Shown here: in pieces, positions 13,069-58,270 of the stretch
How the letters are laid out: each line of letters starts with the position of its first letter
Position numbering within the stretch: the first letter of the stretch is position 1
NCBI GenBank assembly: GCA_003640385.1
Contig: RCAB01000233.1
Coordinates: 1 to 64,000 of the forward strand
Reading direction: 5' to 3'
Length of the DNA stretch: 64,000 nt
DNA from: Setaria digitata
Lineage: Eukaryota > Nematoda > Chromadorea > Rhabditida > Setariidae
Translations under genes and position numbers: made by a program
Notes under the pieces: generated by a model
Databases searched by the model: none
What the model was told of the DNA's origin: nothing
The model's input: only the letters and a program-made list of their open reading frames with translations

Positions 13069-14306
13069 ATGTCAAATCACTCAACTAGTGCTGTGGTGGC
13101 ATTTCTCTTTGCTGTTATTTTGATTGCCATTGGGCAAATTATGAAAGTAAGTAGTCTTACGTAGAAAGAGCTTCCTGATCAAAATAGATAAGGAAAAGTT
13201 ACGTAGTGCTATCAAAATACAGCATTTTCCTGTTTCTATTGAATCCTTGCTTTCGTGTGAAATTAAGTGATCTTTGTATTTATCGGCATGTGGTAAGAAA
13301 TTTTCTTCTGTTTATTTTCAAATTTATCTTTACTTAACAGAAACACACTATATTTGCTCTGGCCACACTGATTTTTTTATTTTCATACCGGCTGTTTATT
13401 TCTGTCTTTCCTTTCAGAATGACCTAGCAGCTTCTAAAGTGGGAACATTAATTGCTGGTGCTTTGGGTTCCTTGGTTTTTGTATTTTTGCTGACAGCTCT
13501 ATCAAATTTCCAAATGTCTTCAGTTGGTGAGCAAGTGAAAGCTGGTCTCACGGAAACTTCTATATGTCTGATTGTTGCTGTCATTGTTTCTGCTACGATT
13601 CATCGAGTTGCTATTACGGTGAGAATAATTAATAGTTATAACTTGATTTTGTTTGACAGTCTTGGGAGAATTTCTTAGTAGGCAAAAAAAGGAGATTAAT
13701 ATTCGAATTAATATTCTTAATATGCATTCTCGAATTACTTTTTCAATTTAAAGAAATCAAACAAAGAATAATTCCATCACATGTAATATAAGTTTGTAGT
13801 ATAATAGAATAAAACTCAAAACTGTTTAACACTAGATGAAGGATTGTACGAGTGAAGATGTTTAGGTTTGATTTATATTCAGTTTTAATAGATGTTGGTT
13901 TTAAAGTATTGGAAGGTTGATGCTATGTCTATAAAACATAGAAAGTTCGGTACTGTATCCCGTGAGTAAGCTGAATTGCCTAAAAGTATTGCAAAAAAAA
14001 TATAACTCCTTCAATAGTCTTAGGTATGAAAAAAGTGCAGATTTTGCAAGCAGTGTAAAGTGCGAGAGGTTACCATTGAGATTGAAAGGGTTATAAGTAA
14101 AGAATTTAGGATGCAGTAATGCTTCAGATATTAGTGAGATGTTGATGCAGTTTTGAAAAGATAATAAGCTTCATTTTTGCTTTTTACTTTTCTAGGTTTG
14201 TCTTTTATTCTCCGCATTTTTGCTATTTTTATTGACGGGAATCAGTCAGACGAGATATATAACTACAGTTATGCAACCAGTCGTACAACAACGGAAGAAG
14301 AAATGA
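13069..14306 (+). CDS. KRTCAP2-like oligosaccharyltransferase accessory subunit
   Basis: Small multi-pass membrane protein matching the keratinocyte-associated protein 2 family, an accessory subunit of the oligosaccharyltransferase complex that N-glycosylates proteins at the ER translocon. Exons 13069-13146, 13418-13618 and 14196-14306, all phase 0, give 129 residues, close to the usual size for the family. Four hydrophobic segments are visible, roughly residues 9-26, 36-58, 70-90 and 94-112. The IHRVAIT segment and the basic C-terminal end (QQRKKK) match the family pattern, the latter like an ER-retained tail. The gap to the LRRC57-like gene downstream is about 1 kb on the same strand. The assignment rests on remembered family sequence and topology. 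Confidence 0.85.
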
Positions 14307-15255: not shown

Positions 15256-15291
15256 ATCAAAAACAATGCTTTAGAACTGGTAAAATGTACA

Positions 15292-18978: not shown

Positions 18979-21900
18979 GTAAGTTTTGATTTGATGAGTT
19001 TTTGCAAGTTCGATTCATGACTGCTGTAGGAAAATTTATGGCTTTTATAGATAATTTTATATTTTCGATAAGCGAGTTTGTTATTTCTTCAACTAACACC
19101 TGTTCTTATTAAGTTAATATGATTTTCCCTGATGAATACGAAGTTTTCTTTGACAAATTAGTGATTTTTATTGGTAAACTAATTCAAATGTGATTTCTTT
19201 GGAAGAACAGTAAATACCATGAGCATCAAATAGTTGTAGTTAGAAAATTCGGGAAGTTGTTCGCTATTCACTCAATAATTTTTGTCGAGTTAACAATAGC
19301 GTGTTCAATTTTCTCTGTTTTTAGTCGTTATCATTAAGAAAAACTTCGTTGTGAACGATGGACGCTTTTTCGCATCAAAGAAATCAAAGCTGTCTCTTAG
19401 ACAATTAGAGTTATGCTGTAAGTGTTATAGCATATGTTGCAGAATATGGCAGATGATCGCGTACTATTGAGAATTGAAGGCACGGATCGCGAATTGACCC
19501 TGTGTCGGGAAGAGCTGCAGTCCGTAAATCCAGCCAAACTAGATAAAATAGAAGACATGTCGTCACTTTCTTACTTAAATGAAGCTTGCGTGCTACACAA
19601 CCTTCGACAGCGCTATTATTCATCACTTATATATGTAAGCTTCCAAACTTTTTTATTTTTATGGCAGTGAAGCGTCAATGAGTTAGAAGGTAAGAGATAA
19701 CGTTGTTGATAAGTTGATGTGAGCGCTATCTACTTCCTGCTATAGTTGTTTACAGACATATTCTGGTTTATTTTGCGTTGTAATCAATCCATATAAATGG
19801 ATGCCTCACATCTATTCGAACGAAGTGATGAAAAGTTACCGTGGACAGAAGCGACATGAAGTACCTCCTCATGTATTCGCTGTAACTGACTGTGCTTATC
19901 ACGAAATGTTGCACCGTTCGTTTTTCTGATTTTCTGTGAAAGTGAAAGTTGCTTTGAAAAAAAAAAAGAATACGGATTTTCAAAAATTTCAGAACGAGAG
20001 GATCAGTCCATCCTTTGCACGGGAGAATCAGGTGCTGGAAAGACTGAAAATACGAAGAAAATAGTTCAATACTTGGCTGATGTTGCAGGCGCTGGACGGC
20101 ACATTCATTCATCAGTAGGCAGGAGTCCCGGAAAGGTTATATTCCTCTTCAATCCAAAATTGTGTATGTTTACTACTTATTGCGAATTGACTGCGAATTT
20201 TCTTTCTCGAGTAGCTTCCTGGAATAAATACCTGGATGAAGAAAATCCTTTGAGGGAGCATGAACATGAAAAATGAAAGCAGAAATTTGATTAATCAATT
20301 TTATCTGGATTTACATCTCCTTTTCGTTATCTGTACTTGTTTATTTTCCAGTTGTGCTTTTCAGGAAGCCTTTAACTTTATTTTAGTGTTAAGATTATAG
20401 TAACCATTATTTTATTGTTTATTTTAGTCACTTTATTTTTTTTTTGAGGAAGACAAGAGGTCACAGTAACCGTCGGTAAGCAAAGATTCTGTTAAAATAT
20501 GTATGTTACTTACCCTAGGCGGTTTAATTGATTTTCATTTGAATAACTGTATTTTTTAAGTTTTTTTTCTTATTCAGAATTTACTCCAGGCAGCGTTGTC
20601 GTTATCACCCCTTTCGGAGAGTTTGTTATCTGTTGTAAGTTTTTTTTTTTTGCTACATTTGACTTCGAGAGGAACAATTACTTCTCTTTTTCTACCTCAT
20701 TTTTAAGATAGCAAATTTAGGGGATTGCACTAGGTGAATGAAGGACTAGAAAGCCTGACTTAAGAAAGTGTTATTTTTTCATTTGGAACTTTTAGGGTCA
20801 ATTGGAAGATCAGTTGCTACTAGCAAATCCGATCCTTGAAGCCTTCGGTAATAGTAAAACAATCAAGAATGACAATTCATCGAGATTTGTGAGTCTTATT
20901 TTTCTTTTTTGTTAGAAATTTTACTTGATTTATGCAAAAAGCAGGTTTTCTTACTTTCATTTTCTTAAGGCAGACTCGCTTTTTCATTCCACGATTTTCA
21001 GCTGCACCATCACTTCAGATTATCATACTTCCTGCTTTTTTGCTTAATCTGCCAGTCTTGTAGCTTTCCTCACGGCCTCTTCTCCAGAAAAAAAAAAAAT
21101 ATAATTAAAAATACACTCTCCATTTTTTGGTCTTTCATCTTTTTTAGAAAAGGAAATTTTTCAGTTTGTCTTGACAAAAATCTGAAAAGTTTCTTACTAC
21201 AGTTTAATAATTCTTAAAAGTAAATTTAAAAAAAAAGAAAGACAATGGACGAAAAAAAAGAAAGACAGTGACGGAAAAGACACGTAGTTTCAAGATCCTC
21301 CATTGCATCACTTAAAGGAAACTATACCTTTTATAGTTTCCTTTAGATATTGATGATTTGTTGCAGGGTAAATTTATCCGAATAAATTTCGACCAGAATG
21401 GTTACATATCGGGTGCAAATATCGAACATTATTTGTTGGAAAAGTCACGCACTATCCGGCAGGCAGCAAACGAACGATCGTTCCATTTTTTTTATCAGTT
21501 GTTGCTTGGATCATCTATCAGTAAAAGAAGTATAGGACTTTTTTGATAATCTTAATATCAGTATTTATAAATAAGATAAGCATTATTGAATTCTTTCCTT
21601 AAATATGGAAAGGGATAATAAAAATGGTTATTGCGATAGAAACAGTGAATTTCGAAGTGGAGTGGATTTGGACAATAATTATAAGCACCAATTATCGTTA
21701 CAAAGTAAAACAGCTTTATCACAGGTGTGTTTTTAATGGATGATATCAATAGTTATCGTTTTCTTACAAATGGGGACCTCGTTATTCCGAATGTAGATGA
21801 TGTATCTGAATTATCAAATACAGTGACTGCAATGAAGGGAATGGGTTTTTCGGACGCAGATATTGATGGTATGTCAAATTTGGCTTGAAATGACAGGATA

Positions 21901-24900
21901 AATATCAACTTTCTACTGCCAACGGAAATATCATAAGTATTGGAGAATGAAATGCCACATTTCTTTCTACTCTGCATTATTTCCTGAACGTTTTCAATGT
22001 TTCCTTCTTTAGAGCATGAGTAAGATGCATACAGGACCATATGAAATCAAGGTGAATAATTTTGAAAGCAGTCTTTAAATGATGCAATAGGGAATAAGCT
22101 TAAAGGCTAAATTATTGTTTTAGCAGTTATGAGGATAACATGTGCAATTTTGCTGTTGGGGAATTTGTCCTTTACGGAAGATCGCACTTCCGAGCAGGCA
22201 ATGCTCGTCGATGATAGAGGTTTTGTCTTATTTTTAACAGGCTTAACGTTTTCAGAGTATTTGATTATCAATATTTTGAAAGTTTTGATACTAAATACTC
22301 TACCAGTGCTGTGCTCCATTTTTTCTTTTTTTTTTTCTTCTTTTTTAAAATTTTTCTGTTTGTTATCGATTATCTTCTTTCAACTGAATAAACGACGAAT
22401 AAAACTTTAATTCCAGTTGCGCAGAAAATATGCTGTTTACTTGGATTGCCAGTTTCGGATTTGGCTAAAGCATTTTTAAAGCCAAGGGTGAAGGTGAATT
22501 TTAACGCATTATGAAACATAGAATGTTTTTATTTTTGGATTACTGCTCACCATATACATCGGCACAGTTGCGTTTTACGGTGAATCAATTCACATTTATA
22601 TATATAATTTTATTTATATATATATGTATATATTGTAGTTTAGATTGCACGTTTCAGGTTGGTCGGGATTATGTACATAAAGCACAGACTCGTGAGCAAG
22701 TACAATATTCGGTAGAAGCTATTGCAAAAACATGCTACGAACGAATGTTTCGATGGTTGGTAACACGAATTAATCGTTCTTTGGGGCGTACTGCAAGCGG
22801 TGGGACAACATTCATTGGTATACTCGATATTGCTGGGTAAATTTTAAACATATTGTTAAGTTGCTAGAAAGAATCAGTCCATGGATTACCTGCAAAGTTT
22901 TTAAGTCTCATTGAATCTTGCACTTGGAAATTATTACATTCCCAAATCAGAAATGGCAGGCAAAAATTAATCACTCAATTGGAATCGATCAATTTTAGGT
23001 TCGAAATATTCGAGTTAAACACTTTCGAACAGTTGTGCATAAATTATACAAATGAAAAGCTGCAGCAGTTGTTTAATAATACGATGTTCATTCTGGAACA
23101 AGAAATGTATCGAAAAGAAGGAATCGAATGGAATTTTATTGATTTTGGTCTCGATTTGCAGCCAACTATCGATCTTATCGAAAAGGTACTTTTAAAAGAC
23201 ATTTTTTAGAATTCTGGGAATATTTGTGCAGGAGCGCGAAATCAAGGAACTTACTATCTTTTTAGTCGCGTTATGTTAATAATTTTTAAAACATCAGATG
23301 TCATTTTATATTTAACTGGTCTATAATAAATCATAGAGCTGAAATTCGTTGTTACCATTATTTACCTATTATTATAAGCGTAAAAATTATCTTTCATATA
23401 ACAAAATATAACACAATTTCACCAATTTATAACAATTTCATATAACAAAATATAACAATTTCATATAACACAATTTCACCAATTTTCTGATAAGACGACT
23501 TTCAAATGTGCAGAAAGCATATCTCTTGAGAAAAAATCGCTTGTAAAACAGAAATTGTGTTATATATTTTGATTATGCTTTTACATGTTTTAGAAAAAAA
23601 AAAAAGTATAATAATTTCAAGTTTGCTCACAGCCATTAGGTATTTTATCACTGTTGGACGAGCAATGTATTTTTCCCAAATCGACTGATAAGTCATACGT
23701 CGAGAAGTTGATTGCCAATCAGTCGAAAAACCCGAAATTTATTGTGCCTGAATTTCGCACAAGAGCTGATTTTGCCATTGTGCATTATGCAGGACGTGTT
23801 GATTATTGTGCAGGTAATATGTGTGAGAGATTGTTTTGGATTACGTTAGTTGAAATTTAGTCTTAAGAAGGCTCATTTCTAATCGTCAGAGACCTATAGG
23901 GGAAGGAGGAGGAGTTCCATAATTTGGTTTTTGCTTTTCAGTCTAAGTTTTACAAATCTCGAGCTTTTTATAGACCAATGGCTAATGAAAAATATGGATC
24001 CTTTGAATGATTCCGTTGTGTTTTTACTTCAAAACTCCATTGATCAGTTTGTGGCAGAAATGTGGAAGAATGGTATGTCGTAGATCTTTCAAGCAAGCTA
24101 GTTTTTGTTTTGGGATATGGGTTGTCAATAATGAACATTGAGTCCTTTTCGATTGCTATCAAGTTTGTTTTCACGGATGTGGAAAGTCAAATTATTCATA
24201 AATTTTGACTTGGAACTGCGTTTTATTCTTCTCTTACTAGCGGAGTTTGCAAGTTTGGGGATGGCGGATCAAACTGATATATTCGGAGCACGAACCAAAC
24301 GAGGAATGTTTCGCACAGTTGGGCAAACTTATAAGGAGCAGTTGTCAAGACTTATGAAAACACTGCAAAATACATCACCACATTTCGTTCGATGTATTAT
24401 TCCGAATCGGGAGAAAAAAGTGAAATTTTAAAAGCTATTTCTATGCAAGTTAATATATTCAAAATTGTTTTCGATTCTTTTCGGAAACTTCGTGTCATTT
24501 AATTGTTGAATTTCTGGGATTTGACTGCATGATGGTTTTATTTGGTAAAAATTTTCAAATCAGTTTGGAAACAAGCTTGGAATTATGTCCACAGTGGTCT
24601 TATTCACCAAAATACATTTTTATTCATTTTCAAAAACACTTCCATTTTTTAGGCTGGTGTCATTGACGGTTTATTGGTATTGGAACAATTGCGTTGTAAC
24701 GGTGTTTTAGAAGGCATTCGTATTTGTCGCCAAGGTTACCCGAGCAGAACTCCATTCCATGATTTTCGTCGAAGATACGAATTACTTGTTGATAGAGGAA
24801 CCATTCCACCTGGTTTCTTAGATGGAAAGGAAGCCGTTAGGTATGTATGTGCTTTTGTCAGGCAGAAAAGATTGTTTGATATTTCGTTTTATTTTTAATG

Positions 24901-27900
24901 TTCAAGTATTGACGATGAAGTATTTTTTGGAGAGTAGTTAAAAAGTTCTCAGAAGTGAAATTGCTTCTAAAGTCGAAGTATTTTTTAGACGAATCCTTGC
25001 TGCCTTAGAAGTGGATGCAAATCTCTTCCGTATCGGTCAATCGAAAGTGTTTTTCCGATCAGGTGTTATCGCTGTTTTGGAGGAAATGCGTGACAAAGAG
25101 CTGGAACGCTTCACTGTTCAACTTCAAACTTACTGCCGCGGATACCTTGCCCGCCGTGCTTTCAAGAAACTTTTGCATCGAGTTTCTGCGATTCGGATAA
25201 TCCAGAGGAATGGTTTGGCTTGGTCACGGTTGAAAGATTGGCATTGGTGGAGATTATTCGCTAAGGTTTCTTACTTCTTTGATTAGTTCTGTTATCGAAA
25301 CAGTGTATGAGGAAATGATATAGTGAAATTCCTTGATTATCTTAAGATAACTGGATGTTCTTATAACGATGGATATATCAATAACAGTTATGCTATCATT
25401 GTGAAATTATGTGTTCAGCCTAATACCCTAACAGTTAAAAAAAAAAAAATTATCTTTTATAAGTATGTATTTTATGTGTATTGCAATCTTTCTTTTTTTT
25501 TTTTTTGTTTTATTGTGTCGTTTCTTCAGTCATGAAGCTTTAGTAAATTTCCATTCTCTTAAGGTTAAACCTCTTCTGGAAGTTACTGCAAGTGAAAAAG
25601 CCATAGCTAATAAGGAATCTGAATTAAAATGTCTACGGGAAACATTGCTGCAAAGAGAATGTGTTTTGTCTGACTATACGACGCGCATTGAACAGGTTAT
25701 ATTTTTCTCTCTAAACAGAAAAAAAAAACTTTGGAGAAACAGAAGAACTTGTAGTAATATTCAATATTAACTTGTAACTTGGAGACTCTTGAAATTCTTA
25801 ATTTTTATAGCTAACAAATGATCGTGCTGAGTTGCAAAGATTGTTGGAGGAAGAAAATGTAGAGAAAACAGAAATGGAAGATATGAAAGACCAGCTGGTA
25901 TCCGCAAAGATGCAATTAGAAAAACAGTTGGAAAGTTTGAGGTTGAAATTAGAGGAAAAAGAAGCCGAATGTATTTCCCTTTTAGAGGGAAAGAGGAAGT
26001 TGGAGGAAGTTTTTTCGTATTTTTGATTCTCATAATTTCTAAATTTTTCCCATTGTTCAGTTTTCCCTGAAAATTTCCCTGTTTCGTGTTGCTTTGAGAG
26101 TTAAAGATTCCACACCCTAGCATGGACTTATTTTGGAATTTGTTTCTCTTTTTTAGGATGATGCAGCGAATCTCAGGAAGGAACTTCGGGGAGAAATTGA
26201 AAAATACGAACAATTACAATCTTGTTATACTACTGTTGACTTGAAGTTGAGGAGTGTCGTCGCAGAGAAAGATCGTTTTTGTGAAGCAAATGAAAAGGTT
26301 GGTGTATGTTTAAATTTTGAAAAGATTTGTAAAAGCAGATTTCGTCCATTCACTTTTTTTTTTCTGTTCAGATGGCCAAGGAAAAGACTCTACTTGAGAA
26401 TAGACTTGTAACAGCCACACAGAGGGTTGTTGTCGAAGAAGAGCAGAATCGGCAGAGTGTTAAGTTAAAAGCGAAATTGGAAGCAAAAATAACAGATTAT
26501 GAACAAGAGAATCAAAAGTTTAGGAAGGTTGGTAAATACCAAATGCAGTAATTATGTCTAATTATGTTATTAATTTAAAGAGTCGATTAAACTGGTTTTT
26601 TTTTGTTATAAAATTATGTCCCAATGGATGTTTTTGTAGAACTTAAGCTCTCTCTTTGTAATTTTCCAATCATTCAGCTTATCGAAACAATGGAACTAGC
26701 AAACCGAAAACTTACTACGGAAGTGCGAGAAGCTCGTGAGGGAAATGAAGAATTGTTAAAAAAACTAAACGAGCTAAGCACTCTGCTTCAAAAAAAAGAC
26801 GAGGAACTTATAGCAACTCTTACACGGTTTCTTACACATATATATATATAGTAATGCAAGTGTTGTTTAAAGCAGCCGTCAAGCATTCATTTATCCTGTG
26901 GTGAATCATCGGCTAATTTATGCTGGAAGTCTTTATTCATTCTATTCATATAAATTTTGATGATTTAAAAATTTAAATTTGGTATTTAGTTGCGATGAAG
27001 AACAATCAGGAAAACAAAATTTAATGAAGCAAACAAAAGAATTAATGCTTGAATTGCAAGAATTGAAAGAAGACTTAGAAAACGAAAAGACTTTAAGGTA
27101 TTTCATGTGTCTGCGGTTGAATAATTTTTAACAGTGAATAATTAGCCTAGAATTGTTCAGGTCGTTAGAATTTATTTGTTGCCAGTTATTTTTTTTTAAA
27201 GAACTTATAAATTCTTGACAAATTAATCTGTAAATATAAAGGCATAAAAAGCCTAAGTTCAAAAAAGAGACTGGTTAATAGTCCTTATTACATTTTGCAG
27301 AGCAAAATCCGAAAGAGGAAAGAGAGATTGCATGGAGGAGTTAGAAGCACTGAAACAAGAATTAATGGAATCGCAGGATAAAACACTAGCTAACGCTGAG
27401 TTGAGAGCTGAACGCGAGAAGCAGTATTTGTCGGTTAAAGTATATCTTTTTTTCCCTGAAAAGTTTAAAAGATTTAAACACATTTATGGGTTCTAAATGC
27501 TTATTTTCTTGAAGAAATTTAGTTGGAAGGAAACTATTTACTATTTATCATAATATGGTGACATATTTCTAAAATTTTTAGAAAGAATTTGAAGAAACAA
27601 CTGTACATTATGAACAGAATCTTGCTGAATTGAGAGAGAAGCATTCGCAACAGTTGGATAGCGTTAGGGTCGAAAATGAACTGTTAAAAAAGGAGATTCA
27701 ACAGGTTTCATCTGTCAGACGTATTGAAACATCATTTTCTTGATATGAATTTTGAGCTTATGCAAAGATTTATAAACTTTTTAGCCGTATCTTGATGGTA
27801 GACAAGCACACCACAAGATTATGAGTTTTAGATGATTAAGACAAAAGACCGTATAGAAAATGAGTTACAAGAGAAATCTGTGGAAATTCAACGAAGTCAG

Positions 27901-30900
27901 TCTTCTTACTCGGAAATTGAGCGTAAAAAGAGGAATGTTGAAAATTCATTGAATGAGTGGCAAATGAAAGCTCAGGAAGCGGATAAAAGCGCTACAGAGT
28001 TGAAATATGCATTGACTAAAGTATGTTTGTCCTTAATTATCTCGAATTTATCTAAACTGTTTATTGCGCTACAGCGGGTTGTGCATGAATATATGTCGAA
28101 TGCGGCGGTGTAAATACCTTCTTCCAAAATAGTTATAATAGTATACATCAGTTAACGAGCTTCTTTTTATTATTTGATTTTATTTCGCCATTTTTTTGCG
28201 GGGGAAATGGAGAGAAATGGAAATTATGGAGTGAAAGTAAGAAATTCTGTAAAATATGTAAACCAAATCGCTAGTATGAAAGAATGTTAGGGACAGACTA
28301 ATTTGAGAATTCTTGAATGGAAATGTTGAAATTCCTCTTTCCATGAATTTTTATTTAGTGCATCTTTTTCTGTGGTGTAAAATTATTTATGGTATATCTC
28401 TGCTTCTGAGAAATCAGTGTCAGTTGAAATATTTCCATTGTTTTGTAAATCTAGGTGCAATCGGAGGTTGAAAGACTTACTCAGGAACTCGAAAATAGCG
28501 AGAGTGCTGTTCTGCTTCTGCATAAGAGACTGGCCACCGCTGAAGCTCAGGTCAGTTATCTTGTTAAAGTTGCTAGTCTAGTCCGAGTATCTACTCAACT
28601 CTATCTCCAAAAATCCAACTTATATTTTATCCATATTATGTTGGTGTTTCTTTTTATGAGCCACTTTGATATCCATCGAATAATTTTGATATAATTGCGT
28701 TTTGTTAGTTCACTACACTCGAAAAATAAAATGTGCATTTTCTTTCAGATCATCGATTTGACTGATTCAATCAGCCTGGAAAAGTCTCAAAATGAAGCAC
28801 TCCGGACGAAATTGCGAAATCAAGATGATGAATTAGAAAATTTACAGGAAAATAAAGAGCACAATGAATTTACCATTCAGAAGTATGAAAAGGTTTGTTT
28901 TTTTTAAGAATTAGGTAAAAACTGTGACTCATAATTCCACAGTAATTTTTTTGAAGTATTCAGGTTTATAAACATAGAGAAGGAGATGAAAGCATCAGGA
29001 ATTTTAATAAATAAATTCGGTTAATAAGTCCTGGGATTTTCGGATACTTAAGACAGAATTCTTTTGCACTACTCCTATTTTTTGTTTTTAGTTCTTACCA
29101 AAATATATAGCCAGTGAATTTTAGGAAATAAATTCTTTGAAACAGCAGCTGACTGAAGCGAACAAGAAGAGCGAGGAAAAACTACTGCTGCAAGGGGAAG
29201 AGTTACGCAAAAAAATGGCTAAAGAAGTGGAAGCTTGTAAGAAAGAGCTGGAACAAAGTGAATATACCCGTACTCGAAGTGAAAAAGCAAAAGAGAAATT
29301 AATGCAGGAGGTAAGCTGAACTTTCAAAATTATTCTGCTGTGCTCAACTATGCCGAGATTTCTAAATACCTGAAGAGGAGGGATATTTTTATATTTGTTG
29401 TCTCGTCTGTTTTGCTGAACAGTTTTCATTAAACTGGAGAAAATGCATCTTTTTTTTAATGAAATCTTCAAAAATGCCAGCTTTTTTTGGTTTTGAGGAC
29501 TATAAAGGCTATTTAATTAATTGTTGCATTAGAGCAGTTATCTCTTATAAGTAGCTTGAAGAATAATTGCTTTGGATTATGCACCTAAATATTTCCAGAT
29601 TTGAAGCTCGATGGAAATTATATGATTCCTCTAAAATGATAGTAAAATGTCCTCTGAGTTTCAAGTAAATATCATTCTTAATTATCCTCGATAAAAGGAT
29701 GACTTTGTTTGCATAGCTTCGTTTGCTTTAATTGCCAATCAGCGTGTTACATGGTGTTCTGGACAAAGTTTTTTCAATTTTTCTTTTTTTTTTTTTGCGT
29801 ATTTTTTAGAACGAGGATATGCTGAACGAGTTAAATAAACTGCGATTTAGTTTGCGCGAAATGGAAAAAAAACAGCGGAAATTTGATCAGATCCTTGGAG
29901 AAGAGAAATCAAATATGACAAAAATCAGTGTTGAACGAGATAAACTGGCACAAGAGGTATATTTGAAATCTTTAAAATTAATCTTTAATGATATCTAGAA
30001 AGTTATTATCTAGTTAAGCGGTTCGTGCTCATCAGTTTGTTTATACTGTAATGAAGTGTAGAGGATAGAAGGATTAATGAGTATAAAGTAAAGGTCGAGG
30101 ATTAAATGAAAGAGATTTAAGTCGCATTTATTTGAAGCTATGAAGTTGAACAATCGGAAAATCCTAGAATAACATTTGCCAGCGTAGTATTTCTGAGTTA
30201 TATTTCCGATACATCATGCATGTGAAGATATAAAAATTTGTATTTAAAGCTTCGCGATCATGAATCAAATGCACTAGTGGCAGCAAAGGAAACCGATATT
30301 CTAAAAGCTCGAATTGTTGAGTTGCAAAATGTTCAGAATATGCTGCAGTTGGATCTTGATAATGCTGTAATTTTTATGTTACATTATTAAATTACCCAGT
30401 AAGTATCAAGCCATTAATATATCAATTCAACTAACTTTTCTTATGTATACTGATGTGATTTTATCTAAAATAATCCTTTCATTGCACGGAGAGCATTTTT
30501 ATCATTTACGAGGGACTGAATTCTATTGCTCTATACTATCCATATATTTAGGTAACTATGAAAGATGATACCGGTCGTAATGCGTTGGAACTTGATCGAA
30601 TTAAGCGACAATTAGAAACCGAATTAGCAAATGCGAAAGAAACAATTATCGAATTGGAAGATAGTCTTCAGCTTAATGAAGATGCCAGACTACGATTAGA
30701 TGTGACGCTGCAGGCGACGAATGCGGAATTGGAAAAAATTCGCGCCGACAAAGAGCGGGATGATGATGAACGATATAAAATAATGCAACGAAAGGTATTT
30801 TGAGATTTGAGAAGTGAATTAATATGAGAAAAGGGTGGTAAGGAGAAAGCGAATGAGTTGTTGTGATTAAAAGAATGTAAATTATACTGGTAGGCAAGTA

Positions 30901-32425
30901 AGCAAACTAGTAAACAAAGGATATAAGTTTCGCGTTTTTTCTACTTGTAAGTATTATCTTTTTAAATTACTGCAAATTTCTTATTGACAGGTGGGAGACC
31001 TGGAAAATGAATTGGATTCAGAACGTCGTAGTAAGGCAGCTTTGGTGCAACAAAAACGTAAACTGGAGGTCGATTTGCATCAAACATCGGAACAAATGGA
31101 AGTTGTTACCGCCCAAAGGGATGAATTTTCACGGCAGTTTCGGAAATGCAGCATGAATTTAAAAGATTTACAGCTGGAACTAGACGAAACAAAAGATGTC
31201 AAGGAGGCTGCATTGATGCGGGCAGTTGATATGGAGAAAAAGTATTTCAAAATATTCGTCTGTAGCAAAAAGGTCCATGAAGTTGAAAGGGAATCATGCG
31301 TAAGAGTGAAATGTTTAAGGCTGCAATAAAAGGCTCATAGCTACGTTTTTCGAATATTTAAACCAAAACTGAGTGGCATGTATTGGAGTCTTAAACATTT
31401 TCTCTTGAGTATAATATTCTACTTCAAACGAACAGACTATGTTGCAATTTTCAGAATATTTTAAATCGAGGTTTTTTAGATTTGGTCTGCATTGCGATGA
31501 TTGTTAAAAAAAATTGTGAACTTTTTTTTCAGGATGAAATATCTAGAAGATGAACTGGCAAAGGTCATGGAAACAAATATGCAATTAACTACAGATAGGC
31601 GACGGGCAGAAAGAGAACGAGATGATGCTGTTGAAGAACTTAATGTTAAAAGTGGTTTAATGAGTGTTGAAGACAGAAAGAGATTGGAAGCGAAGATTTA
31701 CGAATTGGAGGAATTGCTTGAAGAAGAACAGAATAACGCTGAACTAAGTAATGACAAACTTAAAAAGGCTCAAATTCAAGTAAGTATTTCATAAAGCTTG
31801 TCGAATATGAATTTAATGAAAGTTTTTTTTATAACAGCATGATCCAAGTTTTATACTTATTACTATAATCTCTGGTTGTAGCTTTTAATAAAACAGCTTT
31901 AACATTACTTCAAATGAATATTACAGTTTTCTTTGTAATTATTACTTTATTTTCTCATCCTCTAACTATTCTACTAAACGTTGTTGTTAGTGGTGTTGCA
32001 TCGATCTGTTTAGAGCTTTAAATTAATTAGAAAGTTTGCAGCTGGAAACATTGACAACTGAATTGGCAGCCGAACGTTCATTATGCGAAAAGCTAGAAGC
32101 AGATAAGCAAAATTTTCAAAAGCAATGCAAAGAGCTGAAAGTGGCAGTAAGTCATTTTTTTGTTGGATACTTATGTAAAAGTTTTATAGCTATTAAAATC
32201 CGAATAATTTATTAAACTGTAGCTAGAGGAAATGGAAAATGACATGCGAACGCGTAATAGAGGACAGATTGCTGCACTGGAAGCCAAGCTTCAAGCAGCG
32301 AATGAACAATATGTTCAAATGGAGCAAGAACGAAATATGGCCAGTCGACAGGTTATTTCTAAGCTTTTTTTTTGCTCTGTTTTTGTGTTTCATTAAAATC
32401 GCCTGATCATTAGATAGTGCTTTTT

Positions 32426-32458
<33 letters not shown>

Positions 32459-33828
32459 TTAATTGGAACTTGTTGCATTCTGGACACGTGTCGGTTTCGT
32501 GGACGAAGACTTGTTAAGATTTATGTGGATTCCATGCTACGATTTTCTGTTTTACCTATGAATAGCCACCATGTACCGTGGCCAGCATCATCCAGTAAGG
32601 CAAGTATTAGGGCTTGCTTGTATGCTGGTTTTTTTGGTTATCATACCGTTAAATTTTTTGCAAGTTTTTATATTGATAAACTACTTTAAGGTTCGTCGTA
32701 TGGAAAAAAAATTGAATGATGCACTGATGATGAATGAAGAAGAAAAGCGAAATATTGATCAGTTAAAAGAGACCGTAAGTTTATTATTTATTGATGAATT
32801 TCAATGATTTAAATAATCTGCTTTAAATTTTTTGGTATTTTGTTCCTCATTCCCAAAATCTAAAGCTTTTGATAAGTTGCATTCAAGAGTCATATGTCAA
32901 AATCGATTTATTTTATTTTAGGCAGATCGTGCAGTTGCACGGCACCGTCAAATGCGCCGACAAATCGAAGATTTAGAAGAGGAAGCGTGCCGTGAACGAT
33001 CGAAATGTCGACAGTTCCAGCGAAACATTGATGAGCTGAATGAAGCCAACGAAACGTTAACTCGAGAAAATGCACAATTAAAGAGCTTAGCAGCTCTTGC
33101 ACGACGTTCTGGGTTCAACCGACCAAGTACTTCACGTTTTGGAAGTACGTATATTTTTTCGTATAGTTCCTTTATTTTTTGTTTTTTCCTTTTTTAATTT
33201 TTTTATTCTCGTTTCATCTGTGATTTGGAGCTACTCTACATTGTCAAATCCTTTTTGTAATGTGAAAATATGAATTGTTCGCTTCTTCTGAGGTTAAAGA
33301 TTTCTTGTCATAAGATGATGAAAATACTTTGATCAGCAGCAGAAAGATATTGTTACGGTTCACAAACGATCTGATCGGAGAATGGCCGTGAACTGCTTAT
33401 GACCTTTCATTTGCGCATTTTATTAGAATTGCGCTGGATGGCTGATGATTTATGAAATTTTCAGTTTCGTTTATTTATTGATGTAATTAGTTATTTTAAT
33501 TTAATTTGATTTAGTTTGGTCTAATTTTATTTTATTTTTCAACTTCATTTAGATTAGTTTAGTTTAATTTGATTTGATTTTATATTATATTTGTTCTTCA
33601 CTTATTTATTTGCTCACTTCATTTCTTTCTGGGATAATTTGTTTGAATTGAGCTTTTGTCTCAGATTTAGTAGCTGCTTTTTATAGCTTTGTTGTTGCAG
33701 GTGAAACAGACAGTGTCGGACGTGGTGTTCGAAGTTTCGGGGGTGATAGTGCTGATTTGATGCGCCCGAATTCAGGCTCAACAGTAGGTTCGTTTGTTGG
33801 AGAGGACCCAGACCTGACTACTAGTTGA
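18877..33828 (+). CDS. Non-muscle myosin II heavy chain
   Basis: Actin-based motor of cytokinesis and cortical contraction; orthologue of nematode nmy-1 or nmy-2 (I cannot tell which). Exons: 18877-18978, 19443-19634, 19756-19915, 19993-20135, 20578-20634 (optional), 20796-20888, 21367-21529, 21725-21868, 22124-22219, 22417-22493, 22658-22836, 22999-23185, 23633-23813, 23974-24072, 24241-24419, 24653-24840, 24989-25265, 25564-25695, 25811-26008, 26157-26297, 26372-26527, 26678-26826, 26990-27097, 27301-27439, 27582-27704, 27832-28020, 28455-28550, 28749-28892, 29125-29310, 29810-29956, 30250-30366, 30552-30794, 30991-31241, 31533-31779, 32042-32146, 32223-32351, 32691-32774, 32922-33144, 33701-33828. 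They total 5952 nt, 1983 residues, in frame with no stop. P-loop GESGAGKT (162-169), switch I NDNSSRFGKF, switch II DIAGFE, relay [16 protein letters not shown] helix [15 protein letters not shown], two IQ motifs, head-tail proline in VKPLLEV (about 842), then heptad coiled coil and a Ser/Gly-rich tailpiece of about 58 residues. The N-terminus is uncertain. Confidence 0.94.
20578..20634 (+). other. Candidate loop-1 cassette exon of the myosin gene
   Basis: A 57-base segment bounded by TATTCAG and GTAAGT lies between the P-loop exon and the exon that begins [12 protein letters not shown]. It is 19 codons, phase 0 on both sides and open, encoding [19 protein letters not shown], so it can be included or skipped without shifting the frame. 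It falls in surface loop 1, where vertebrate non-muscle myosins IIB and IIC carry alternatively spliced inserts. Whether it is ever skipped is not shown by the sequence. Confidence 0.6.
21313..21345. repeat. 14-bp inverted repeat just before a myosin 3' splice site
   Basis: Bases 21313-21326 (TAAAGGAAACTATA) are the exact reverse complement of 21332-21345, with loop CCTTT. The hairpin ends about 20 bases before the acceptor of the exon at 21367, so it would fold near the branch point and polypyrimidine region of that intron. Confidence 0.9.
23390..23485. repeat. Tandem repeat in a myosin intron
   Basis: The motif TTTCATATAACAAAATATAAC and the companion ACACAATTTCACCAATTT recur two to three times in alternating order, a compound minisatellite-like array inside the intron between the exons ending 23185 and starting 23633. 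Confidence 0.85.
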
Positions 33829-36265
33829 TTAAAGTTTTTTCCTGCTTTACAGTTTCTCTATGCTTGTTCAATTAGTTCTTCGGATTTTTTTTTTAATGTA
33901 GACTCTTTATGGTTTTAGTTTCTAGAATGCAAAGAGAAAATAAAAAATAGGCCACTGCTCTTCTACATGAATGTCATTTATAGTTTGCAAAAAAATGTCA
34001 GCTTTATTTTTTCGATTTGATGTAATTTCATTTGTAGGACGAAATCTTAATTGTTGTATAGCCTGTCTGATTTTTTTTCACTCCACTTTATTTGCATACG
34101 AGCGATAGTCTTTTATTTCATTTGGAATTTTTTCGGTATTAATTGTTGTGGTCAAAAAACTGCACTGAATATTTAATATTGATTCCATTTATTGGAAGTG
34201 TAGGTGGAATAAAAGACACGTAGACAGACACATCATTTTTGAAAAAGGAATGTTGGGAGGAAGAATAGTAAGTAGGTTGGGAATAGCTTTTTTGTTCTCG
34301 AGTTAAAATTAAAATGATGCTAACTGCATTTTGAGAAAGACAACTGAGGAAAATAACTTGTCAAGGAGTGGAAGTGATTCTTGTTAGCACTTTGAAACTT
34401 TGATTGGAAGTGGCATTTAAGAATCAATTTCATTCTTATTCTGCCGTCGGAATTTTGGGTTGATATTAGTTATACTTTTGGCTGTCGATAGTAATAACGC
34501 TTGTATGTTGCTTAGCTCATGTGATTTCTTCATTGCTGCTTTTTTTTTTAATTATGTATTTGCATTTTAACGGGTGCCATTATTCTTAATCATAGCGATC
34601 AGCTTTTCACTACGTTATTTTGGAAAAGTGATTAGTGATAGTGATACAGTCAAGGATTTTACTCTTTGATTTGAAATATTTTTGAAAACAAAACTTGCAA
34701 CCTCCCTATCGAACACATTCCGATCTTGAAACATCACTTTATTTCCCTTTTTTTTGTTTAATATCTGTTCGTTCGCCTTAGTATTTCCATAAATTTCAAA
34801 TAAATTTGCTTATATGTTTTTGGTGTTTTTTTCTTTTTTTTTTTTTTAAATATCTTCATATTTTAGACTTTTGGAAAATTCTTCGCAATAAAATTGTAGA
34901 GCTCGAAATAAGAAAGATATCCTGCCTTTTAGATACAGTAACTCTTCAGAAAGAAGTCCGAATCATGGTTTGAATGCCATTAGTTATTTTTAGCTATTTT
35001 TCCTATTCTGTTTGAAATCCCCGTATAAGTCATACATTCAGTCGACTTTTCCGAAAGTGAGAATTTCTATTCAGTCTAATTTTATCTTATTCAGATAAAC
35101 TTATGATCATAAAATTCCAATTGGCGTTCTAAAAGGAGCAGCTTGTATACCCGACATGGATGAGCTTTATCGGTTAATTTCAAAGTATCGATTCTTTCGA
35201 AAGACCTCAATATTGCACCGGTTTTTACCGATATGACAGATTTTGAAACTTTCCGAAATTAAATTCCCATTTTTTTTCGCGAATAAGAACCTTACATTAC
35301 TAAGCTTATTCAGGATTTGAAGAAATGATGAGCAAAAACGTAAGTATTTTTCAGATTTTTTATTAATTTGTCCTATTCGTTGATTATTTGTAATCATTTG
35401 ATTATCTAATAATAATAAACTTGGCTTTACTATTTACCTGATCCGTCACCCAGCACCTCTGACATAGTTTGAATTATGCCTATTAGTAGAGTGAGCTTTA
35501 AGAGTCTATTAAACGTTAAATAAATTTTTAGCAGAAATAAAATAGAATGTTGTCAGTAACATGAAGAATTTGAAATCCTATTGCATCTAATGGCATTAAA
35601 ATATTCAAGTAGTTCACTAAACTTCGTCATAATTTCGATATCAAGTCACTGCCAATATAGCTTGGACAAAATATTCAGAAGAACCGCTCGACCCAGTTCA
35701 TAGACTATAATAAAGCCTCTTTTTTTTTTTGTGAAAATTACCTGGAAAGAAATATTGTTGAAAAGGTTTAGGGAGTGAAAAAAGAAATGAACAAGTAGGC
35801 AATGTTATTCGTCAAAAAAAAAAAATGGAATAATTAATTTGTTGAAGCAATGCTCACAACGGAAAATAAAATAATTTACTATGAAAATAAAAAAGGTGAT
35901 ATTTTTCTGCCACTGAGAATAATGTTTATTCATTTAATTCAGTATTTTTATTCAATCCTTTCAATTAGACGGACATAAGAAGACAATTTAAATTTGGTTA
36001 ATCATTTAAAATAAACCACATAATTATGATGACTGCATACTTTGCTTATTCTGTTGTAAAATATTTCAACATTTAATTAGATTTTCATACAGTAATTAGG
36101 CAGTTTAGGTTCTAGAAAATAGAAAATGTTTTGAAAAGGTAACATTTTTCCACATTTTATTTACGTCTCAATATAAAAAAGTAATTTTTAACATCTCACA
36201 TAAACTAATTAATTTTTCCTAATACTGACAGCAGTATCGTAGGAAATATTTAAAAATAATTGGTA
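33829..36265. other. Intergenic region between convergent genes
   Basis: It lies between the end of the myosin gene (+) and the end of the cysteine-module gene (-), so both 3' UTRs should be here. AATAAA-type signals are near 33940 and 34890 (+ strand). The minus-strand open frame at 35167-35397 has no protein features I trust. No other gene seen. Confidence 0.6.
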
Positions 36266-39200
36266 TTATAGCGCAAAATCTGCATTCATTATAACTGGTA
36301 GGCATTGCTTAATTTTTCCGGAAGTACGGCAAATTTTTGTTGTATCTGCGCAATCGCCGTCACTGATACAAGGCGGTTCATCATCTACCGTAAGACAACG
36401 TCGAGAGTACTGTAATGTTTACGAAATCTTACAAATGAAATGAAGAGACAAGTGTGAGGATTTGTACAAAATTTTGATAAAATAGCAAGTTTTTGGAATT
36501 TTAAATTCGATTGCAATTTTAAGAGTTGAAAAAAGTAGTGAGAGAGAAGTTTCAAATTCCGTGCACAATCTTAAAATTTCAAAAACTTACTCTCATGTAG
36601 GAATTTTGAAGAAATTGTTGAAGCGAGAAAAATTCGAAAGAGGTAAAAATTAAATGATTTAAATTATTGCATTTGTTTATGACATTTTTTTAGAGTCAGC
36701 GATAAGAGAGAAAAAAAATGCTTCGGATAGAATTTTTCAAAACTCCCAAATTTTTTCGACTTTGACTTTGTTAGATTACAGTTGTAGAATTTTTAAAAAT
36801 TTTAATAATTCAGAAAATACTTCTTACCCGTTGAAAGGAATTATCACTGCCGATATCAGTACACCGTTGCTCAGCTGAACATTCATAATCATTGGTACAC
36901 GGTTGCATATATGTTGGTAGCTTCGTCATTCGACAGATGTGAAGATTTTGTAAAACTTTCTCACAACGCTGAATTTTTTTTTATCAATAAATCATTAAAA
37001 ATTCCTAACCAGTTTTACTAATAATTAAAAAAACAGTTTAGAAAAAAAAACTATGATCATATCTTAAAAGTAAAAGTAGTTTCGGAAATTTTAACCTTGT
37101 TATTTCTGGCGTTTGCTTATTCATACATATTATTATTAATCCATACTTGAATTCACTACTTGATTGATTTTCAAAAAAAAAAAAAAAAAAAAAAAAAGAG
37201 AGATCAAAATTACTGATGTAAATTTTAAAATATGATAAAAATAAGCTTGATTTCAATAATAAGTAAATTAAAATCAAAAATTCGAATAAATTTGTTGCAG
37301 TTAAATTCGATATGGTTTACATATTAACAAATAAAACAAGAATTACAAAATAATGTGAGGTCAAATGTCAAATTATAAACAAACTTGACTAGATTGGCAA
37401 TCAGCATTAAATCGACACTGTCGGTAAGTGGCTGTTGGATTGTAGGTGCATCTACGCTTACCGCTAATACTACTTTCAGCACATACTTCATAAACTGAAC
37501 ACTAAAATTCAGAACAAAAGATTTCAAGAATATTTAATATGATAAGTTATCACTTCTCTTTATCACAATGAATCGATGTTCTATTTCTAAGGGTTGTAAT
37601 TTTGAAAATATATCTGAAAAGTAACTGTTGGATTGTAGAATTGTACGATCAGTGATCAATTCTGCTTTATCAGACAAATCAATCATTACATTGATGTTTG
37701 TTTAATTGTTCTTACGTTGAAGAATACAATTTCGAACAGAATTAAATTTCTTCTACCAAATTAATCAATTAGCACACGAATATTTTTTGTCATTTTAAAA
37801 TTTAAATAATCATTGGAATAGCAATATTACTGAATAGAAAAGAAGAAAATTAATAATCACGAACGGTACTTGATAATCAGCAGTGCATTCTTTTTTCAAA
37901 TTTGTGATAACACCATTACCAATTGAATTTCGTATCATCACACCATGGCCAATGTCAGCATTCCGAAATAGATTCATTTTATCGTTTTCTACAAAAAATT
38001 TAGTGCTTTTATTATTTTATTTTCTTTTGAAAAGGAAAATTTTATTGCAAATGTATGGTTTTTTTTTCGCGCAGAATTCACCATAAAATGTAAATCAATT
38101 TTAAATAAATTTATAAAATTTAAAAATTTTCAATAAATTTGAAATATATGTATAATTTTTTGCTTACGACCTTCTGATGACGATAAGCACAAATTGTTCC
38201 TGTACTCTTTGCTGTATGAGCATTTTTGCATCATACCACAATCCATATCACTTTGGCAAATGTTGTAGAGAAGATTGTCAGCAATGAGCTGAATTATTTA
38301 TTACTTTTAATTTTAATGAATGATTACTTCAAGAAAGTACCAAAATATAAAAACAAACGAATAAATAATTCATTTCATTTCTTTTTTTTTTCTTTTTCAA
38401 ATCTAACTTGGCAAGTTAATTTGCCGTTTCTATTGGCACACTGCAAATATTGGCCACAGTCAGCATCTGTATAGCATGGATCGTTTATCATACCACCAAG
38501 AACTAAAGAATGTAAATTTTTTTTTAAGAACAAAAAATTTATTTAATTTAAAAAATTTTATTTCCAAATAATTTTTCAAATATATTTCATGTGCAAAAAC
38601 ACTGTAATTGATAAAATTTCAATTTTAAATGTTTTTTTTTAAAACTTTATTGATAAAATTAATAATATTTTGTAATTAAATAAATGGTTATAAAAAAAAT
38701 CCGTGTTTAATAATTATAAAGAAAGGTATTGCATTTTTTAAACTATTCGTTAATTTTGTTCCATTGAAAATAGAAAGAAGCAATAAAAAAAAAGTTTGAG
38801 TAAATTTCTCTTTTCTTTTGTAAGTACTGAGAATAATTGCACTTTCTGACAAAGATTCTAGTCTATTATAAATAATAATAAAAATTAACTAAGAGAAAAT
38901 CCAGTAAAAGTACTATTTTCGGCGTTTTTTTTTTTGCATTTAAAATGAAAAAAAATTTTCAAGTATAAAATGAAATGAAAGTTTACTTTTCCAACCAGGT
39001 GATTCATGCTGACAAATACCGTACCAGCCAAATTGAGTACATTTCTCAAATCCATCACATTGAGCATCATTACGACAAGCTTTCTGTCTTGGTTGTATTT
39101 TCGAAAATAAACTAATTAACAAGGATTTTATTTTTCGAAAAAATAACCATCAGATTTAAATTGATTGAAATTTGATAAAATACTGCTTGAAAAAATTTCA

Positions 39201-39905
39201 TTGCTTCAAATTGCTAGAGCAGAAAAAAAAAATCGGTGAATAAAATTTCTATTTTCTACACTAGTACTACCAGGAATAAATAAATAAACAAACAAATAAA
39301 TAAACGAGTAAATAAAGAAAAGAAAAAAGAAAATATTGGTAACTGGATATAATTAGCAATAATTCTATAAAAAAAATTGCTGTGAAAATCCCTTTTATTA
39401 TACTATTACCAGGAAAAATATATAAATTAATTAATAATAGATAAATAAATGAGTAAATAAATAAATTTTTTTATTTTACTATTACAATAATAAATAAATG
39501 GGTAAACGAATAAGTAAATGTGCGAATAATAAATAAGTAAATAAATGAAAAAAAAAAAGGAAAATATCAAAAACTGAATACAATTGGCATTGATTCCACA
39601 GAAAAATTTATTTGCAGAAATCGTTGTTTATTATACTAGATTTTTTGACCATTCTGTAAAAGTTAACTTTTATAAAAATTAATTTTAATCATTTTATAAA
39701 TTGGATTTATTTTTGGTCAAATTTTACAAACAGTTGTTGCTGTAGAAGGCATTTGTTGACAAAACAGCAATCCAGCCGTATTTGGAAGGCATCGTTCATC
39801 TGAACTACACTGTGCATCGCTGATACAGTACTTCACAAACTGTATGCTGTATGTTTGTGGATATACGATAAGAAGTGAAGCAAATAACAGCAAAACAAGA
39901 GACAT
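36266..39905 (-). CDS. Predicted secreted protein with eight CX5CX5C modules
   Basis: Minus-strand gene; exons in transcript order: 39905-39732, 39083-38987, 38502-38408, 38288-38168, 37988-37870, 37501-37385, 36968-36828, 36409-36266. Phases agree at all seven junctions and give 335 residues ending at TAA. Residues 1-20 (MSLVLLLFASLLIVYPQTYS) look like a signal peptide, so the product should be exported. The mature part consists of eight modules of C-x5-C-x5-C-x(8-15)-C, each starting with a pattern like C-x-x-D-A-x-C: CISDAQC, CRNDAQC, CYTDADC, CQSDMDC, CTADYQC, CRFNADC, CTNDYEC and CISDGDC. The last module has six residues between the second and third Cys. A linker of about 35 residues without Cys separates modules four and five. 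No transmembrane segment or GPI signal is seen. I do not recognise a named gene; small disulfide modules of this sort occur in nematode secreted proteins, possibly related to the EB module. The function is unknown. Confidence 0.8.
39270..39660. repeat. Diverged tandem duplication in intron 1 of the cysteine-module gene
   Basis: Two adjacent stretches share the same order: an AATAAATAAATA-like tract, then a GAAAATAT...AACTG...ATACAATTGGCA-like segment, then a TTTATTATACTA segment. The first is about 39270-39410 and the second about 39420-39645. They are well diverged, so the duplication is old. No exon is included. Confidence 0.6.
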
Positions 39906-46883: not shown

Positions 46884-47057
46884 ACGTGTCAATCTTACTG
46901 ATGGTGGTGGCGTCTGAACGTGAGATTCCTTAGCAATAATATCATAAGGACGTGATTAAACGTGTCATTTGTCGGCAGTGATGGAATCTTAACGTGTCGA
47001 AACGTGTCATTTGTCGGCAGTGATGGAATCTTAACGTGTCGAAACGTGTCATTTGTT
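46884..47057. repeat. 42-bp tandem repeat in an ACGTG-rich cluster
   Basis: A 42-base unit starts at 46958 and 47000 (identical copies) and again at 47042 for about 16 bases. Each unit carries ACGTGTC twice, and three further ACGTG sites lie just upstream (46884, 46918, 46950), making eight ACGTG cores in about 165 bases, all in the same orientation. The tract lies between the minus-strand genes and the long spacer before cut-1. Confidence 0.9.
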
Positions 47058-55453: not shown

Positions 55454-55534
55454 GAGCAATTCTTTTGGTGGAATAAACGGCAAATAATTCTCTAGTTTAC
55501 TGAGGAACAAAAATTCTTATTTAATCCAATAATT

Positions 55535-58270
55535 ATGCTTCGTTTTATTGGTTTCTTCACGACGCTTCTTGCGCTATCATATTCAATTCCTGTTGATAAC
55601 GGTGTTGAAGGTAATAATTTTTTTTTTAATTTTAGTTTCTTGAAAATTTTTATTAATATTTCTTAATTATTTATCATTTTTTTTTTGCGATTTCTTTCTT
55701 TTATGATTAAATAACCAAAGTTTTAATTACAATCTTTTTCTTTTTATTGCCTAAATTTTGTGGAATATTTTTGAAATACAATTGAAAAAAAAAATTTAAT
55801 TTATATAAATGTTTTTTTCTTTTTAAATTCTATTCCATAATTATTGCTACAGCATCATTATTTCTCTACGAAAAAAAAAATTTTAATTCATTTGTTTAGG
55901 TTTTCTTATCGTTTCAAAATTTAGATTATCTTTTTTCTTTTCTTTTTTTTTTTGTATCAAAATAAAATTTAGAAGAAACAAGAATTTTATTTTAAAAATT
56001 TTTGAATTATAATACGTATGATTTGTAGGTGAACCGGAAATTGAATGCGGACCAACATCGATAACCATCAATTTCAATACACGTAATGCATTCGAAGGAC
56101 ACGTTTACGTGAAAGGTCTGTATGATCAGGAAGGATGTCGAAATGATGAAGGCGGACGCCAGGTTGCCGGAATATCACTTCCGTTTGATTCCTGTAATGT
56201 TGCTCGTACACGATCGTTGAATCCTCGAGGTATTACAGTTTTCTTCTCATTTATAGCAATTTTTGATTCAAATGACAAAAAAGCAAAAAAAAAAGGGAGG
56301 AAGAAAAAAATAAAAAAGTGAATTTCAATATGTCACTAATTTGATAAAAGATTTAGATTTTCTGAATGTTTAAATGAAAAATTTAGCCTTTCATCAGTGA
56401 TTGAATATAAAAAATTCAACTTTATTAATGATTTAAGCAAACACTCTAATTCACTATTGTTTGAATGAAAAATTTAGCTTTTTTATTAATGAGATGAAAG
56501 AGATGATTCAAATTTTGATAATTTCAAATTTATCAATAGTTGAAAATAAACAAGAAAAAAAAAGTAAACAATTATGTTGTTTTTTTTTTTTTGACTCAAA
56601 TTATTACAAATGAAAAAAAAAAAAAAAAACCTTAACAGGTATCTTTGTGACCACAACTGTCGTCATTTCGTTTCATCCACTATTTGTCACCAAAGTTGAT
56701 CGAGCATATCGTGTACAATGCTTCTATATGGAAGCTGATAAAACAGTTAGCACTCAAATTGAGGTTTCCGAAATTACAACCGCTTTCCAAACTCAAATTG
56801 TTCCAATGCCTGTTTGCCGATATGAGGTTTGCTCATTTTTCTTTTATTTAAATTTAAATTTGAAACTGAAGAAGCTACAATTTTCTCTCCTTTCCTTCAT
56901 AAATTCAAATCTTTTGATTAATAAAAGAAAGGAAAGAAAAAAATTTATCATTTATTAATTTAATTGAAAAAAAAAAAAAAAAGAAAATAAATGAATGAAG
57001 AAAAAGTTTTTTTTTCGTTTTTTTTTTCGTTTCTTTTTTCAGATTCTTGATGGTGGACCAACCGGACAACCAGTTCAGTTTGCTACAATTGGCCAACCGG
57101 TTTATCACAAATGGACATGTGATTCTGAAACCGTTGATACTTTCTGTGCAGTTGTTCATTCATGCTTCGTAGATGATGGCAACGGTGACACTGTAGAAAT
57201 TCTGAACTCTGATGGTTGTGCACTCGATAAATACCTGTTGAATAACTTGGAGTATCCTACAGGTAAGTGATATATCTCGAAGAAAAATTAATTAATGAAT
57301 AGGATTAGAAAAAAAAAATGTTCTGCATTATTAACAACCATATTTTTCACCCATTTGTTAAATAAACGATGAACCGTTAAAAGAAATGATTTGTTTAGAT
57401 TTAATTAAAAAAAAAAAAAAAAGAAGAAATAATCATCTTCATCGTTAACAAAATTAATCAATCTTTAACATTTAATTAATTTCACTTTTTCCTTTTTTAG
57501 ACTTGATGGCTGGTCAAGAAGCTCACGTTTACAAATATGCCGATCGATCGCAGCTGTTTTATCAGTGCCAAATCAGTATCACCATCAAGGAACCAAACAG
57601 TGAATGCGCTCGGCCACAATGCTCAGAGCCACAAGGATTCGGAGCTGTTAAAACCGGTGGTACCGGATCTAAGCCGGCAGCAGCTGCTCAATTACGTTTG
57701 CTCAAGAAGAGATCTGCTGAACCGGAAAATATCGTCGACGTACGAACTGACATTAACGCTCTTGAAATTAGCGAAGATGTATGCATTTCTATTCTTTTCT
57801 TTTTTCTCTTTACCTATTAATTAATTATAACTAATTTTTTTTTCATATTTTAATTTTCCTTATTCTTTTTTGGATTTTTGGGCGAGAAAAGGAAGCTAAA
57901 ATTTGCATGTTAGAATAAATAAGAGAGAAAAACAATAATAATAAAAATGTGGCACAAAAATTTGACTATTTAATTACTTATCCAAAATTTTCAGCTATAT
58001 TATTCCTCTTCCTTCAAAATGAAATTTCACCAAATATGAAACTTTCTTTTTAAATTAAAGTTTTTCTTTCAGAATCAAGCCTTGCCAGTTGATTTACGCC
58101 ATCGTGGACGTCTTCATCATCTTGGACAACCAATGGTACTTGCTACTGTTCAAAATGGAATCTGTATGTCACCATTTGGCTTCTCAATCTTTATGGGTCT
58201 TAGCGTTGCACTGGTTGCTGCTGTTATTGTCACCATTTCATTTAAGTTACGCCCAGTTCAAAAAGCATGA
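55535..58270 (+). CDS. cut-1: Cuticlin-1 (CUT-1), ZP-domain cuticle protein
   Basis: Structural protein of the insoluble cuticlin layer of the nematode cuticle. Exons 55535-55610, 56029-56229, 56639-56826, 57043-57262, 57501-57778 and 58073-58270 join in frame to 386 residues. Residues 1-17 form a signal peptide. The ZP domain starts near residue 30 (IECGPTSITINFNTRNAFEG) and runs to about residue 270, with stretches matching remembered CUT-1 sequence almost word for word (VKGLYDQEGC, FYMEADKTVSTQIEV, YHKWTCDSET, HVYKYADRSQLFYQCQ). A dibasic RLLKKR site at about 294-299 is a plausible furin cleavage site that would release the ZP part. A hydrophobic segment at about 355-377 followed by a short basic tail (KLRPVQKA) is the membrane anchor. 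A TATA box and CAG/CAA leader precede it. Confidence 0.96.

Follow-up and report, generated by a model that had tools for sequence, protein, structure and literature searches.

Between positions 36,266 and 39,905 of the stretch of Setaria digitata DNA analysed here (contig RCAB01000233.1, positions 1 to 64,000, hereafter the window), no single open frame reveals a gene. An earlier note made from the letters alone had proposed that eight small exons of the minus strand join in phase at this place to encode a signal peptide followed by eight cysteine modules. The question raised by the locus was whether such a gene exists and what kind of protein it would give. First of all, the model was rebuilt from the DNA. 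The eight minus-strand exons (39905-36266) joined in frame without internal stop, the seven introns were all of the GT...AG type and their phases were 0,1,0,1,0,0,0, exactly as proposed. The 335 residues previously given for the product were reproduced with the exon-4 donor at 38168, and 334 were obtained with a donor located 3 nucleotides earlier. With this earlier donor, intron lengths ranged from 119 to 648 nucleotides, and the G+C content was 21% in introns versus 39% in exons. Independent support came from the Brugia malayi protein Bm10250, which was searched against the genome of S. digitata itself (75.6 Mb, 976 contigs, the window lying on contig C150). This protein recovered seven of the eight exons (exon 5 was missed) and gave no other match at E<=10. 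The gene for the eight-module cysteine protein is therefore real, and its structure is established with the exception of the first junction.

The cysteine pattern of this gene is far above chance. The product contains 32 cysteines, all of them within eight C-x5-C-x5(6)-C-x(8-15)-C modules that follow a signal-peptide-like hydrophobic start, as the earlier note had described. The spacings between consecutive cysteines (C1 to C4) were, from module 1 to module 8, 5,5,9; 5,5,8; 5,5,8; 5,5,10; 5,5,10; 5,5,9; 5,5,15 and 5,6,8, so that six residues separate C2 and C3 only in module 8 and five do so in the other seven. An Asp is found three residues past the first cysteine in all modules but module 6, which has Asn, and the linkers joining the modules have 8-40 residues. 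No adjacent cysteine pair (CC) was present anywhere in the protein. The complete four-cysteine pattern occurred five times in the six frames of the window, always inside this gene, whereas 60 first-order Markov shuffles gave it 0.08 times on average and never more than once. The three-cysteine core was found eight times. This gene accounts for seven of these occurrences, one of which uses an intron-encoded cysteine; in the same shuffles the core averaged 1.55 and reached 5 at most.

With respect to the ends of the gene, the hydropathy peak corresponds to residues 1-15, the sole strongly hydrophobic stretch of the protein, and no N-glycosylation motif was found in the 334-residue form. These features together make a soluble extracellular protein likely, and the product is probably secreted and disulfide-rich. 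A TTGCAG motif ends 10 nucleotides upstream of the ATG and resembles a trans-splice acceptor.

Table. Exons of the eight-module cysteine gene and its polyadenylation-like signal, in window coordinates
Feature	Position	Strand	Content
Exon 1	39732..39905	-	ATG, signal-peptide-like hydrophobic start, module 1 (C27-C49)
Exon 2	38987..39083	-	Module 2 (C61-C82); 5' boundary is the least certain junction; acceptor ACCAAGACAG
Exon 3	38408..38502	-	Module 3 (C100-C121)
Exon 4	38168..38288	-	Module 4 (C133-C156); donor at 38168 (GTAAGC)
Exon 5	37870..37988	-	Long linker; module 5, first Cys (C197)
Exon 6	37385..37501	-	Module 5, remainder (to C220); module 6, first half
Exon 7	36828..36968	-	Module 6, remainder (to C253); module 7, greater part
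Exon 8	36266..36409	-	Last Cys of module 7 (C293), module 8 (C302-C324), stop
AATAAA polyadenylation-like signal	36156..36161	-	104 nucleotides 3' of the stop; sequence match only

Relatives of the product were looked for among 5.8 billion proteins with a word-based search, which needs shared five-residue words and similar length. Nine related proteins from eight species were found, all of them filariae, although distant or fragmentary relatives could escape a search of this kind. The species were Cercopithifilaria johnstoni, B. malayi, Loa loa, Acanthocheilonema viteae (two models), Elaeophora elaphi, Dirofilaria immitis, Onchocerca flexuosa and S. digitata itself. Setaria (family Setariidae) and Brugia both belong to Filarioidea according to the taxonomy look-up, and we take the other six species to belong there as well. 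The orthologues include the hypothetical proteins Bm10250 (B. malayi), LOAG_07778 (L. loa), DINM_000947 (D. immitis) and ACH3XW_18250 (A. viteae). The Setaria model was 47-54% identical to six aligned orthologues, and the C. johnstoni protein was 62-77% identical to five orthologues. Of the 32 cysteines, 27 were identical in all seven aligned rows, and each of the remaining five was absent from one row only, at the end of a short model. Worms related to Setaria thus do have orthologues with the same cysteine spacing, which the earlier note had proposed as a test, and its description of an old, disulfide-constrained, probably secreted repeat protein is supported at the level of sequence. Wherever the models are complete the order of the modules is the same, but linker 1 is longer in all six orthologues, and in Setaria the C2-C3 interval of module 8 is one residue longer. 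In the midpoint-rooted tree the longest branch was that of Setaria and Brugia joined Loa (85/85); three of the four inner branches were without resolution and no branch was flagged as long. No second copy was detected in the S. digitata genome, where the Setaria model recovered its own eight exons alone at E<=0.001. By its full-length similarity, the same order of eight modules and this lack of a second copy, the protein belongs to the Bm10250-type orthologous group, and it is almost certainly the S. digitata orthologue of an apparently single-copy gene so far found only in filariae.

The splice junctions were examined by comparing the GT-AG choices near each of them against five orthologues. 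At junctions 2-7 the choices of the model scored best, and moving the exon-4 donor from 38171 to 38168 raised the score for five of six orthologues and left it unchanged for the other one. Junction 1 is uncertain. Its acceptor is weak, linker 1 is, as mentioned above, shorter than in the orthologues, an alternative shifted by 4 nucleotides scores slightly higher, and the residues encoded in frame immediately 5' of the acceptor are PRQ, against PKQ in four of six orthologues. In O. flexuosa the public model terminates in QAGQVCPLYFHSIMK, which looks like a read-through into an intron placed as Setaria intron 6 is, and suggests that the two species share this intron position.

The gene had been presented as hidden. 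This is right in so far as the only S. digitata protein found (P0009, UniRef A0A915PT10) corresponds to exons 5-8, but the orthologues of other filariae were already annotated as hypothetical proteins. The 169 residues that A0A915PT10 shares with our model are identical, in agreement with S. digitata as the source of the window. Its first residue is a Met encoded within exon 5, no hydrophobic start is present, and it differs by a single insertion of 13 residues that is the exact translation of the first 39 nucleotides of intron 5. If this public model were correct, the locus would give a short product of exons 5-8 with the 13-residue insert, and exons 1-4 would not belong to it. The entry exists as such, and E. 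elaphi carries an insert at the same point and scores higher with it (842 vs 823). However, exons 1-4 match Bm10250 in order, the short model lacks a hydrophobic start, and our choice at junction 5 preserves the C-x5-C spacing and outscores the public one for five of the six orthologues. We consider the short product highly improbable. By comparison with the orthologues, the public S. digitata model is incomplete, as it lacks exons 1-4 and with them the signal-peptide-like start and four modules.

The possible origin of the modules was then considered from the intron positions. Introns 5, 6 and 7 do lie off the module borders, as had been claimed for the introns in general: they interrupt modules 5, 6 and 7 after their C1, C2 and C3, respectively. 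The claim does not hold for introns 1-4, which are in linkers, so that exons 1-4 carry one whole module each. Exons 2, 3 and 4 are asymmetrical (phases 0 to 1, 1 to 0 and 0 to 1), and consequently duplicating any one of them alone would break the frame. In addition, Setaria modules matched the same-numbered modules of the orthologues best in all 47 comparisons made (six orthologues by eight modules, minus module 8 of the short A. viteae model). Since every module finds its own counterpart, the eight-module layout predates the split of Setaria from Onchocercidae, and by this comparison it was complete before Setariidae and Onchocercidae separated. The earlier conclusion that no recent exon duplication took place therefore stands, resting more on the 47 module comparisons than on intron placement.

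Automatic annotation has given the orthologues four different family names (WAP, Dickkopf_N, EB and DUF7107), none of which fits the Setaria protein well. WAP, Dickkopf_N and DUF7107 each match all seven aligned family members at E<=10. The WAP four-disulfide core (PF00095) labels the B. malayi and S. digitata entries in Pfam, which would make the product a multi-domain protease inhibitor, and the Setaria score of 38.3 bits, summed over five stretches, exceeds the cut-off of 20.8. However, a WAP domain has eight cysteines including an adjacent CC pair, and the Setaria protein contradicts it by having no such pair and four cysteines per unit. A WAP-type inhibitor is thus quite improbable. DUF7107 (PF23416), the database label of five of the nine orthologous proteins, gave 16.4 bits for the Setaria protein versus a cut-off of 24.6, and this gene was absent from the 15 matches at E<=10 obtained in an exon-wise search of the S. 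digitata genome. Dickkopf_N (PF04706) is the database label of orthologues P0002, P0004, P0006 and P0007, its best match among the aligned proteins had an E-value of 7.4e-7, and its cysteine core is similar, which might indicate a secreted regulator of a signalling receptor. Yet the Setaria protein scored 17.5 bits against a cut-off of 25, this gene was absent from the seven matches at E<=1 of the exon-wise search of its own genome, and eight similar four-cysteine repeats differ from the Dickkopf layout of two different Cys-rich regions.

The EB module (PF01683) resembles this protein in forming Cys-rich repeats of nematode proteins, and the database calls the E. elaphi protein 'EB domain-containing protein'. 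However, the six families obtained for the seven members at E<=10 did not include EB, and of the 71 EB matches at E<=1 in the S. digitata genome only exon 2 came from this gene (17.4 bits vs a cut-off of 24.3). Dense arrays of EB matches, many of them over the cut-off, were observed on other contigs (C492:30947-38692, C778:21298-34869 and C84:60025-64790) and suggest large multi-EB genes elsewhere in this genome.

Structure prediction gave some indication of the fold of single modules. Setaria module 4 alone was modelled as a turn plus a hairpin with a mean predicted local distance difference test (pLDDT) score of 72 in the best of five models, the turn lying directly before C2 and the hairpin carrying C3 and C4. 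In the whole-protein prediction, a low-confidence one made on the C. johnstoni orthologue, a turn followed by a hairpin appeared in every module except module 2. All structural matches (Dickkopf, SLPI, small toxin chains and others) were non-significant, with none at E<=0.001. Dickkopf structures recurred among them, the Dkk N-terminal region (5o57) giving Foldseek E-values of 2.3 and 2.7 from models of low and middling confidence. A Dickkopf-like role is very improbable.

Conservation along the protein was uneven. Mean non-Cys identity between Setaria and the orthologues was 45, 44, 56, 50, 65, 70, 44 and 49% for modules 1 to 8, and 67% for linker 5 versus 30% for the long linker 4. Modules 5-6 together with linker 5 showed higher conservation than modules 1-4, at 67% vs 48% between Setaria and six orthologues (49 and 75 columns, respectively; p 0.007 by Mann-Whitney test) and at 77% vs 57% when the other six filariae were compared with one another (p 0.0003). 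These p values are rough, since positions in a single protein depend on each other and the regions were picked after viewing the alignment. From these data we propose a protein with a signal peptide followed by eight linker-joined four-cysteine units, each formed by a short turn and a beta-hairpin. Each module would hold two disulfides and the whole would have a beads-on-a-string shape; secretion, disulfides and shape are deduced from the sequence. Such a rigid extracellular array could bind a partner through the constrained modules 5-6 and might act as a matrix or lining protein of the worm, in pharynx or cuticle, with N-terminal modules that change faster. This complete explanation has, in our opinion, about an even chance of being right, and a matrix or binding role, taken by itself, is tentative and falls somewhat short of that. 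The nearest published parallel seen, by analogy only and across a family boundary, is in Anisakis larvae, for which one study describes transcripts with EB modules enriched in the dissected pharyngeal region and presents the pharyngeal transcripts as candidates for host-parasite interplay (PMC5763927).

Several observations weigh against this proposal. The roughness of the p values is one of them. Furthermore, adding module 7, which on its own reaches just 44%, shrinks the Setaria contrast to 58% vs 48% (p 0.08). The prediction obtained for the whole C. johnstoni protein has poor confidence (pLDDT 47). E. elaphi (P0005) and A0A915PT10 both have inserted residues separating C1 from C2 in module 5, and alternative splicing may occur at junction 5. 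The Anisakis parallel concerns EB modules, whose profile this protein does not reach, and would equally suit a host-directed protein. Finally, no transcript, peptide or localisation evidence was found for the gene, and neither 'Bm10250' nor 'LOAG_07778' was named in the literature searched, supplementary tables excepted.

The main rival is precisely such a host-directed protein, released by the worm to bind a host molecule and with N-terminal modules changing under immune pressure. The signal-peptide-like start without any further strongly hydrophobic stretch, the restriction of the word-based matches to filariae and the low identity between Setaria and the six onchocercid orthologues (47-54%) would agree with it. 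On the other hand, no second copy of the gene was detected in its genome, the tree flags no long branch, though most of its inner branches lack resolution, and the silence of the searched literature on Bm10250 and LOAG_07778 does not favour it either. We regard this rival as rather unlikely. A bolder version is improbable: a secreted binding protein invented by filariae and acting on a host molecule, with modules 5-6 as its active part and an outer face of faster-changing N-terminal modules, overlooked since the models are short or incomplete in several species.

Returning to the proposed matrix or binding array, we read the product as an uncharacterised, probably extracellular protein, tentatively of this kind, so far known from filariae. 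The public entry found for S. digitata annotates half of a real gene whose product is probably secreted and which to date has been seen only in filariae. If the worms release this product, it would be a candidate marker or antigen common to them.

Other features were observed in the window. Exons similar to those of a myosin heavy chain extend over 19890-33194 (+), with Myosin_head and IQ matches followed by coiled-coil-like frames. A leucine-rich-repeat gene with LRR_4 and LRR_8 matches, presumably LRRC57-like, is located at 15256-16839 (+), and a frame at 13271-13675 (+) matches Keratin_assoc (PF09775, keratinocyte-associated protein 2). A cuticlin-type gene with CUT_N and CUT_C matches lies at 55496-57817 (+), with a signal-peptide-like frame upstream. 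At 46958-47056, a stretch in which no gene was recognised, there is a 42-base tandem repeat of 2.4 copies with 100% match.
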